Assembly (NCBI GenBank): GCA_000333855.2
Contig: CM007319.1
Location: forward strand, 2,008,282-2,072,281
Direction of reading: 5' to 3'
Length of the DNA stretch: 64,000 nucleotides
From: Endotrypanum monterogeii
Taxonomy: Eukaryota; Euglenozoa; Kinetoplastea; Trypanosomatida; Trypanosomatidae
Below the pieces are notes generated by a model. That model was not told the origin of the DNA, made no database searches, and saw nothing but the letters and a program-made list of their open reading frames with translations. The translations under genes and the position numbers were made by a program. Within the stretch, counting starts at the first letter, position 1. The number at the start of each line of letters is the position of its first letter. Positions 54,811 through 59,443 of the stretch are shown here, one piece after another.

Positions 54811-55650
54811 TTATCTCTGATCATCGTACACATAGACGTGATGTCGACCCATTTTTTGCATCGCGAACTCTACAGCCACTAGCTGCTTCTCTAAGAGCTC
54901 TTGGTGAGCACGCTGTGATGGTGTTTCCATCTTACCGAAACCCTTCCTCTGGTATTCTTTGTTGAGAACGTCCCAGCGACGCTGGAGACCTTCGCGCAGC
55001 TGCGCCAGCTCTGCAGCAGGAATCTCTGACCATAGCTCCTGAGCAGCCTTCTCTGTTGCATAGAAGTCTTCAAGTACCTTTTTGCGTGCATTCAGATCCC
55101 CTTTGATTTCGGTAATGTACTTGGGCACCTTCCCGAAATCCTCGCGGTCCGTCGCGCGAGGCTGTGGGACTGGCATTACCTTAGTTGGCACCGCCATTGT
55201 GTTCTCTACAGCATTGGCGACTACGAAGTTCTTGTCCGTCCGCAATCCCATGACAGGGCGCTCGTGGCGCAAGGGAACGTCAGGTTTTATCTTCTCCTGG
55301 TGGTAATCACTTTTCTTAAACTTGGAGTTGTCGACAGTGGGTGCGCCACGACTGGCGGTGAGCGGTCCTTCGTTTTTTCGAAGGAAGTTCTCCGGATTCA
55401 CAGTGCTGCCGACCTCGCGACCAAAGGTTCCAATAGGCTTCCGTGCGGGGTGCACAGAAGGTTCCGTGTATTCTCCCCCGGCGTTAGCTAAAATCGCGCT
55501 GGTGCCGTGAATGCCAAAGGTGGACGCTGTCGGGGGTGGCGCTGGGCAATTCTTCTTGACAGCCACGATTGGTTTGGCGCTCTGGATTTTTCCGTCTGCG
55601 GCTGAAGGTCCACTAGCGGCCACCAAGTTGTAAACACACTCACCGGACAT
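54811..55650 (-). CDS. Enkurin-domain protein
   Basis: ATG at 55650 (MSGECVYNLVAASG) gives 279 residues. The C-terminal half matches the enkurin domain: DKNFVVANAVENTM (about 138-151), DFGKVPKYITEIKGDL, and the long coiled coil LAQLREGLQRRWDVLNKEYQRKGFG that ends with the TPSQRAHQELLEKQL segment. The N-terminal half is Pro/Lys-rich with a VNPENFLRKNEG motif. Enkurin-type proteins (enkurin/CFAP106, Fap106) bind the lumen of axonemal doublet microtubules as inner-junction proteins, so a flagellar role is likely. ENKD1-like alternatives cannot be excluded. Confidence 0.85.
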   Translation of the reverse strand: MSGECVYNLVAASGPSAADGKIQSAKPIVAVKKNCPAPPPTASTFGIHGTSAILANAGGEYTEPSVHPARKPIGTFGREVGSTVNPENFLRKNEGPLTASRGAPTVDNSKFKKSDYHQEKIKPDVPLRHERPVMGLRTDKNFVVANAVENTMAVPTKVMPVPQPRATDREDFGKVPKYITEIKGDLNARKKVLEDFYATEKAAQELWSEIPAAELAQLREGLQRRWDVLNKEYQRKGFGKMETPSQRAHQELLEKQLVAVEFAMQKMGRHHVYVYDDQR

Positions 55651-57938: not shown

Positions 57939-59375
57939 CTACTCGGCTCTGCGACATACAGCATCACCTGCCCACACCCCACGATCGAAGATGTGGTCCA
58001 CTTTCGCTGGATCGACGCAGGTGAGACAGCTTGCTATATCGCATGGAAAATCCGGATGATTTCCGTCGAACGGACAGTGATCCACTCCAGGACACGGTAT
58101 AAAAAGCGGCTCCGCGGTATCCCACCGTGCATTGCAGCGTTCACACATAAAGCGCGTGCCAAAGGAGCGTTGGGTAGCGGGGTTGCAGCAGTACCGGCAT
58201 TTGAAGATGGCAATCGGATTGTCACACGTTGTGTGGTTCTTTAGACGGCAATCATCGCAGACCAACTCCTCTGGAGACGAGGACGGCTCGCGCCCCTGCA
58301 TCCGTGAGCATACACGATCGCCGCCGTAAAACGCGAGGCTACAGCTGCCGCAAAGATAGTAAAGAAGATCGTCTTCGGCCTTCATGGGTGTATAGTTCTT
58401 CACCTGAGCGGCCTTCTTTGTGGTCACTTCTGTGTACAACTCGCCTATTTTCTTTGACTGCGTCAACAAAGGATGGCGAACCAAGCGCTTGCACCCGCTG
58501 GGGCACACAGCGCGAGTGAACGAGATATGCTCACCCTTCGTTGCGAAGTCCATCCAGTTGATCACCCACTGTTCGATGCACTCTTTATGAAAGTAATGTC
58601 CACAGTCCAAGGTGACACCGTCGTCACCGTCGAACTCACACAGGCAAATCGTGCACACAACCTCACTATCAGTCGGCTGAGAACACGTAAGGTGCAGGGC
58701 ACCGATCGGGGACACTGCAGAATCACCCTTCGACGAGACGAGATCACTACCATCTGTGTGGAAAAAAACATCGCCCAACGACACGAAGGGCACGCGTGGC
58801 AACACCGCGTCGAGCTCCACCGTGGTGCCCGCCTCCGTGATGCCCACCACACCCTCCTCACTACCAATCCGCAATGCCACAGCGTACCGCTTAAAGTGGC
58901 CTAGAAAACTCGCTATGTTAACCCCGTTCGCTACTTCCCTCAAGCCTTTGTTGAAGTCGTAGCCGAACACTCTATTGCACATACTGAGAAATACGAAACC
59001 GTGATCAGCCGCCTCGGCGCTAGCGACGCTGAACGGAACGGAGATTGTCTCAGACACACTGCAGAGAGGATCGTACACAGTAATTCGGCAGTTTCCAGAA
59101 GAAATACACACGACCTTGTTATGATGGCAGAGAACGTGCGTGTGCGCGTCAACCAAATCTAGGACCACGTCATCCGCACCGCTCTCCAAGTCGCGTCGAT
59201 GCAAATTCGAGGGAGACAACTTTGGGAGATAAAAAAAAACGTTATCGCCTGCTGAAGCGGCCGAGACAACTCCACCAATAATAACGGTTTTTCCTGCAAT
59301 GCAAAATGTCCCATCTGCGGAATCGACTATCTCCGCCACAGCTCCACTATCGGAGTTGTATCCGATGACGGGCAT
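57939..59375 (-). CDS. RING and tandem-cysteine (MYCBP2/PHR-type RING-Cys-relay) E3 ubiquitin ligase
   Basis: ATG at 59375 (MPVIGYNSDSGAV) gives 478 residues. The frame continues to an ATG at 59678, but through a perfect splice tract, so the short start is preferred. Residues 1-225 are beta-rich, propeller-like. A RING follows (C241, C244, C258, H260, H263, C266, C291, C295; the last pair is spaced CxxxC). Residues about 339-455 match the tandem-cysteine domain of MYCBP2/Highwire: YYLCGSC, FYGGDRVC, PEELVCDDC, FKCRYCC, FGTRFMCERC. MYCBP2 relays ubiquitin from Cys4520 to Cys4572 and esterifies threonine. The first cysteine and Glu4534 are kept here (C356, E370), but Cys4572 is aligned to Ser404, Phe4578 to Met410 and His4583 to Asn415. 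Ligase activity is likely; the relay as known in MYCBP2 is not. Confidence 0.83.
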   Translation of the reverse strand: MPVIGYNSDSGAVAEIVDSADGTFCIAGKTVIIGGVVSAASAGDNVFFYLPKLSPSNLHRRDLESGADDVVLDLVDAHTHVLCHHNKVVCISSGNCRITVYDPLCSVSETISVPFSVASAEAADHGFVFLSMCNRVFGYDFNKGLREVANGVNIASFLGHFKRYAVALRIGSEEGVVGITEAGTTVELDAVLPRVPFVSLGDVFFHTDGSDLVSSKGDSAVSPIGALHLTCSQPTDSEVVCTICLCEFDGDDGVTLDCGHYFHKECIEQWVINWMDFATKGEHISFTRAVCPSGCKRLVRHPLLTQSKKIGELYTEVTTKKAAQVKNYTPMKAEDDLLYYLCGSCSLAFYGGDRVCSRMQGREPSSSPEELVCDDCRLKNHTTCDNPIAIFKCRYCCNPATQRSFGTRFMCERCNARWDTAEPLFIPCPGVDHCPFDGNHPDFPCDIASCLTCVDPAKVDHIFDRGVWAGDAVCRRAE

Positions 59376-59420: not shown

Positions 59421-59443
59421 ACTGAGGAAAAGAAAGAAAAAGA
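59421..59443 (-). promoter_or_regulatory. Likely trans-splice acceptor of the RING/tandem-cysteine ligase gene
   Basis: The transcript has a near-pure pyrimidine tract (plus-strand A/G, 59425-59443) followed by TCAG, with the AG at 59423-59422, about 46 bases before the ATG at 59375. This placement decides between the two possible start codons. Confidence 0.65.

Follow-up and report, generated by a model that had tools for sequence, protein, structure and literature searches.

The founding papers on RING-Cys-relay (RCR) ligases are said to be Pao 2018 and Mabbitt 2020. In MYCBP2, ubiquitin is described as passing from the E2 to a first cysteine on a flexible mediator loop and then to a second cysteine, and a histidine base, a glutamate and a three-phenylalanine pocket deliver it to threonine (PMC6769291, PMC9527308). 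The human E3 compendium, with its 672 high-confidence E3s, names MYCBP2 as the E3 with this mechanism; the ligase is described as conserved from C. elegans through mammals, and RPM-1/MYCBP2 as acting together with a separate F-box protein. The E3 inventory of L. mexicana is divided into HECT, RBR, RING (57 members), RING-CH and U-box classes, and the screen reported there treated the HECT and RBR E3s as the cysteine-dependent ones (PMC7647121). A search of the open-library literature found no publication on the RCR mechanism in trypanosomatids, and a search for MYCBP2, Leishmania and ubiquitin found no parasite relative of MYCBP2 by title among the matches listed. The titles listed for related searches, most of them a part of what matched, named none either.

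The locus and its domain layout

We analysed a stretch of 64,000 nucleotides from Endotrypanum monterogeii (the window), which contains the gene for a RING/tandem-cysteine (TC) protein, P0002. Its general features are as follows.

57939..59375, minus strand: coding sequence of the 478-aa RING/TC-domain protein (by translation); exactly this length in 9 of 39 protein-search matches
59422..59423, minus strand: AG following a polypyrimidine tract, a likely trans-splice acceptor, 46 bases ahead of the ATG (sequence read directly)
58680..59375, minus strand: beta-propeller, probably six-bladed, a probable substrate-binding domain, residues 1-232
58473..58670, minus strand: RING finger (Pfam zf-RING_2), residues 236-301, with C241, C244, C258, H260, H263, C266, C291 and C295
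58401..58457, minus strand: helix connecting RING and TC domain, residues 307-325 (AlphaFold2 model)
58017..58370, minus strand: TC domain, residues 336-453 (homology to MYCBP2)

The reading frame runs on the minus strand from an ATG at 59375 to a stop codon ending at 57939, and its 478 codons are intact and stop-free; an alternative mechanical ORF of 579 aa starts upstream of this ATG. Polypyrimidine tracts have an established role in trans-splicing in trypanosomatids. Since no ATG lies between the AG at 59423-59422 and the 478-codon start, trans-splicing at this AG would yield the 478-aa protein, and the evidence favours this start over the 579-codon ORF. The product is thus far smaller than MYCBP2, as the preliminary description had stated: the PHR proteins (MYCBP2, Phr1, Highwire, RPM-1) are giant and multi-domain, whereas P0002 has 478 residues and an N-terminal propeller. 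In a search with region 225-478, the nearest proteins belong to Porcisia hertigi (78% identity) and named Leishmania species (67-74%), as expected for a Leishmania-like trypanosomatid host. In the 30.7-Mb assembly (44 contigs), protein queries with P0002, P0041 and P0038 found no second TC gene besides this locus, with one or two candidates scored for each, so that a distant copy could be missed. A search of the same genome with PF13639, which is not TC-specific, gave 33 RING places. On the same strand, a neighbouring ORF at 52384-53697 matches PF01358, the poly A polymerase regulatory subunit (E 1.8e-10), and another at 54811-55650 carries an Enkurin domain (E 3.3e-17), a calmodulin-binding family.

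Modelling of the domain, which the preliminary description had proposed, gave a confident fold. In the AlphaFold2 model of P0002 (mean pLDDT 89.1), residues 1-232 fold into a beta-propeller and 236-301 into the RING; the helix at 307-325 is followed by a zinc-rich domain at 336-453. In a Foldseek search of the PDB the MYCBP2 RCR structure 6t7f ranked first and 5o6c third, and the remaining top-ranked matches were beta-propeller proteins, kelch, designed six-bladed and LRP-type ones included. Model confidence is 77 for residues 351-360 and 81 for 361-370, with flanking blocks at 95 and 87, and lower still, at 70, for 441-450; the values of the two loop blocks might fit a mobile loop. MYCBP2 was also the top match of phmmer against PDB sequences (6t7f, E 1.7e-15), and among the 50 VIA rows listed the TC part was reached only by two MYCBP2 rows. 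A profile built from 39 rows matches MYCBP2 across both RING and TC domain with an E-value of 5.1e-39, which excludes a chance resemblance. Judged by these alignments, P0002 is genuinely related to the RING/TC module of MYCBP2, with which it has in common the RING-then-TC order and the Cys/His pattern seen in 5o6c and 6t7f.

The RING of P0002 scores 34.5 bits against a zf-RING_2 cut-off of 27.3, and its eight ligand columns are invariant in all 40 rows of alignment A1. The last knuckle differs from that of MYCBP2: all 39 family rows of A1 have CxxxC there (C291-C295), whereas the CxxC of MYCBP2 is one residue shorter. The Pfam scan found no family other than RING types above cut-off in P0002, and no IBR family at E-values up to 1, so that the RBR layout, with IBR and RING2 after RING1, is absent. 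At residues 381-384 (58224-58235, minus strand), where MYCBP2 has CxxH, P0002 and most near relatives have HxxC; P0010 has neither residue of this pair in A1, in a gappy region of the alignment.

The relay cysteine and its loop

For comparison we assembled a kinetoplastid family of 41 sequences: P0002, 38 of the 39 protein-search matches (P0041 being set aside) and two new matches from a search with alignment A2, in which the 7991 candidates sharing most words were scored and four matched. These rows are not independent, as near relatives are included and at least one species (T. rangeli) occurs twice. A second set comprises P0041 and 119 others (P0041-P0160), 120 listed of 165 found; its readable organism names are those of diatoms (Nitzschia, Thalassiosira, Fragilaria, Cyclotella, Seminavis, Cylindrotheca and others), and most rows are nameless. 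For MYCBP2 we take the residue numbers Cys4520, Cys4572, Glu4534, Phe4578 and His4583 to be as given in the preliminary description; by count, the two cysteines of the MYCBP2 chain are 52 residues apart, consistent with 4520 and 4572. The positions of interest in P0002 are the following.

58263..58331, minus strand: mediator loop bearing the relay cysteine, residues 349-371; the distance between C356 and the CxxC that follows is 16 residues in MYCBP2 and all 41 family members
58308..58310, minus strand: C356, equivalent of relay Cys4520 (codon TGC); Cys in 41 of 41 family members
58266..58268, minus strand: E370, equivalent of Glu4534; Glu in 19 and Asp in 19 of 41, with Ser, Leu and Thr once each
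58134..58199, minus strand: CRYCC hairpin block CxxCC-x6-S-x6-CxxC, residues 393-414; no gaps in any of the 41 family members or 120 diatom-set proteins
58164..58166, minus strand: Ser404, at the position of esterifying Cys4572 (codon TCC); Ser in 40 and Cys in 1 of 41
58146..58148, minus strand: M410, at Phe4578; Leu 19, Met 14, Val 3, Ile 2 and Phe 2 as the five commonest residues of 41; Phe in 116 of 120 of the diatom set
58131..58133, minus strand: N415, where MYCBP2 has the general base His4583; a single one of the 41 family members has His, as do 120 of 120 of the diatom set

Position by position, the preliminary description was accurate. The phmmer alignment to 6t7f places FKCRYCC and FGT in register with MYCBP2, the CxxC spacing of the hairpin block is the same throughout both sets, Cys4520 and Glu4534 are kept as C356 and E370, a serine stands beneath Cys4572, and M410 and N415 replace Phe4578 and His4583.

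The first site is well preserved. Its cysteine is found in every family member and in 119 of the 120 diatom-set proteins, those with an anchorable motif, P0158 having an insert there; in these 119 the loop to the next CxxC varies from 11 to 31 residues. The kinetoplastid loop of fixed length has residues of its own, R358 (38/41), E363 (39/41), P364 (38/41) and P368 (41/41). Column 370 is Glu or Asp in 38 of 41, and the members with Ser, Leu or Thr are those of the P0040 clade. Sixteen other Cys/His residues of P0002 align with the zinc ligands of the MYCBP2 TC domain, whose pattern we take to be C5HC7HC2, and C356 is not among them; a zinc role for C356 is therefore unnecessary. Some members, such as P0008 and P0010, are without one or more residues of this pattern.

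This preservation bears on an alternative reading, a plain RING ligase in which the E2 passes ubiquitin directly to the substrate, the TC domain is a scaffold or a surface that binds ubiquitin or substrate, and C356 is structural. We consider this somewhat unlikely. It would agree with the good conservation of the RING and with the loss of the second site described below, yet C356 is invariant, in a loop of fixed length and outside the sixteen zinc-ligand columns. The basic RING linchpin, the residue after the last RING cysteine, cuts both ways. It is Lys in P0002, as in MYCBP2, and 24 of the 39 family rows of A1 have Lys, 13 have Gly, and Arg and Ala occur once each; nine of the 13 Gly rows are named Trypanosoma, and P0038 and P0040 also have Gly. 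Lys would permit plain RING catalysis, whereas Gly speaks against it, and the loss of the basic residue in the Gly rows fits transthiolation better than a plain RING reaction.

Position 404 and its history

At the second site the family differs from MYCBP2. The preliminary description had asked whether Ser404 is conserved across trypanosomatids, and it is: the esterifying cysteine is Ser in 40 of 41 members. His4583 is likewise replaced in 40 of 41, and the site is thus dismantled as a unit. Because MYCBP2 and 120 of 120 listed diatom-set proteins keep both Cys and His, the loss is a feature of the kinetoplastid family. With one catalytic station kept and the other gone family-wide, it is not the noise of a single genome. 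Of the three phenylalanines that presumably form the MYCBP2 pocket, one has its counterpart in F405 (kept in 38/41), the second corresponds to position 410, mostly Leu or Met, and the third to position 418, which is Trp (38/41) where MYCBP2 has Phe. R408 and W418 are family-conserved residues near S404 in sequence.

A decayed pseudo-enzyme, or an artefact, is extremely unlikely to account for the serine. We found nothing in its support, beyond the fact that Cys and Ser codons are one base apart, so that one wrong base could, in principle, produce the same picture. The same Ser occurs in 40 of 41 sequences from several sources and at least six named genera (Porcisia, Leishmania, Novymonas, Lotmaria, Leptomonas and Trypanosoma), the frame is intact and the whole module is strongly conserved. 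A sequencing error at codon 404 is rejected on the same count of 40 in 41.

Very improbable, too, is that a replacement cysteine serves the second site, within P0002 or in a partner. The candidate is C246, just past a RING ligand and not itself a usual RING ligand, which 37 of 39 family rows of A1 share; however, it is Asp in P0034 and P0040, and the stretch reads CFDD in P0161 and P0162. C397 and C411, which the preliminary description had named as possible esterifying residues, are rejected, since all 41 family members, all 120 diatom-set proteins and MYCBP2 have Cys at both positions, alongside the second relay cysteine where that is present.

In a tree of the 41 family rows, MYCBP2 and 16 of the 120 diatom-set rows (our choice), with the trait column omitted, the family falls on one side of a branch with support 93/76; the P0040 clade splits first and P0038 next. 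The members of this deep clade (P0040, P0161 and P0162) have Ser404 and the relay cysteine but not R358, R408, W418 or E370. P0038 (494 aa) is the sole family member with Cys404. It has R358, R408 and W418 and carries Asp at 415, so that the His is missing even where Cys404 is present, and it is a natural comparator. On the best tree P0038 lies inside the Ser-bearing rows, which would imply at least two Ser/Cys changes: Cys was either lost twice or lost once and regained once. When MYCBP2 is included, a single origin of Ser is not rejected (p-AU 0.085); when MYCBP2 is left out, it is rejected (p-AU 0.012). The group tested was named after the tree had been seen, and the branches of the diatom set and MYCBP2 are long and may attract each other.

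Could ubiquitin be handed from C356 to Ser404? Such a relay, with a Ser404 oxyester as slow intermediate or as dead-end or regulatory self-modification, seems improbable to us, and a hand-over of this kind is weakly suggested by the sequences. Position 404 is solely Ser or Cys in 41 members, with the repeated swaps on the best tree, and the hydrophobic setting persists in F405 and W418. On the other hand, the general-base His is missing in 40 of 41, which would leave the Ser without activation, and oxyesters are poor donors to amines. The conservation of Ser404 is also unexceptional beside its neighbours: its entropy ranks 43 of 216 columns in the 39 family rows of A1 and equals that of N398, P399, T401, F405, G406 and W418. 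Because these hairpin neighbours are equally conserved, the constancy of Ser404 can be structural, and the entropy that it shares with the first five is what the purely structural hairpin of a plain RING ligase would lead one to expect. Decidedly improbable is the stronger version, a natural Cys-to-Ser relay in which the oxyester is used or read as a signal, a hydroxyl acts as second station and Ser and Cys are interchangeable in evolution.

Outside kinetoplastids, diatoms and other protists have a large RING/TC family that is fused in nearly all members to an F-box-associated domain (FBA, PF04300). It has in common with P0002 the RING/TC module and the relay cysteine in register, but its mediator loop varies in length and the MYCBP2 esterification site is complete in 120 of 120 listed (165 found). 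Given that RPM-1/MYCBP2 partners with a separate F-box protein, the fusion is suggestive, by analogy, of a built-in partner domain. One entry, from Seminavis robusta, is annotated as protein ligase MYCBP2; the module outside animals is therefore already known, at least to automatic annotation.

Proposed routes of ubiquitin transfer

What is established is how the protein is built from its domains, that it is homologous to the MYCBP2 module, that C356 and its loop are retained, and that Cys4572 and His4583 have been lost. The reading we prefer, to which we give about an even chance, is that P0002 is a derived one-cysteine relative of the RCR ligases and discharges ubiquitin straight from C356. 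The RING would bind the E2~ubiquitin, and a transthiolation step matching the first half of MYCBP2 catalysis would load ubiquitin onto C356 in the mediator loop. No second thioester would form: ubiquitin would then go directly to a substrate, probably one bound by the beta-propeller, while Ser404 would preserve the shape of the old esterification pocket and have no carrier role. Given an intact Cys4520 and the loss of Cys4572 and His4583, the simplest enzyme that could work would pass ubiquitin from E2 to C356 to substrate, and since the hydroxyl-activating His is gone, the acceptor would most likely be an amine. A likeness may be seen with RBR ligases (HHARI, HOIP, RNF216), in which a RING-bound E2 passes ubiquitin to a single E3 cysteine. 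Against transfer from a single cysteine, C356 could have been retained for a structural reason, and Glu or Asp at 370 is kept without its His partner, which the model does not explain.

The preliminary description had left three options, ubiquitin stopping at C356, passing to serine or moving directly to substrate; direct transfer from C356 appears to fit best. It had also proposed, if the structure holds, a variant of the RCR mechanism. The RING/TC relationship, the relay cysteine and the Glu/Asp stand; class membership was overstated, as the second relay cysteine is missing. By its sequence P0002 most likely works like the first half of an RCR ligase and, because the second cysteine is absent, is not an RCR ligase by definition.

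The RING/TC module is thus present in kinetoplastids and diatoms, and the kinetoplastid branch, which is without the second carrier, suggests that a two-cysteine enzyme exists in nature in a one-cysteine form. The family offers a natural test of the need for two cysteines, of whether the first alone can deliver ubiquitin, and also of what His and the second Cys add for hydroxyl chemistry. As P0002 is small and intact, it could be studied whole. Trypanosomatid E3 inventories may miscount cysteine-dependent ligases.

Two minor observations concern related sequences. A literature search for 'secreted protein 66' and Trypanosoma rangeli gave no match; the Trypanosoma orthologs P0030, P0034, P0035 and P0036 are annotated as 'excreted/secreted protein 66', a name that masks a ubiquitin-ligase-like protein. 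The viral_contigs scan gave one locus (L003), with a match limited to 32 residues of the RING part.
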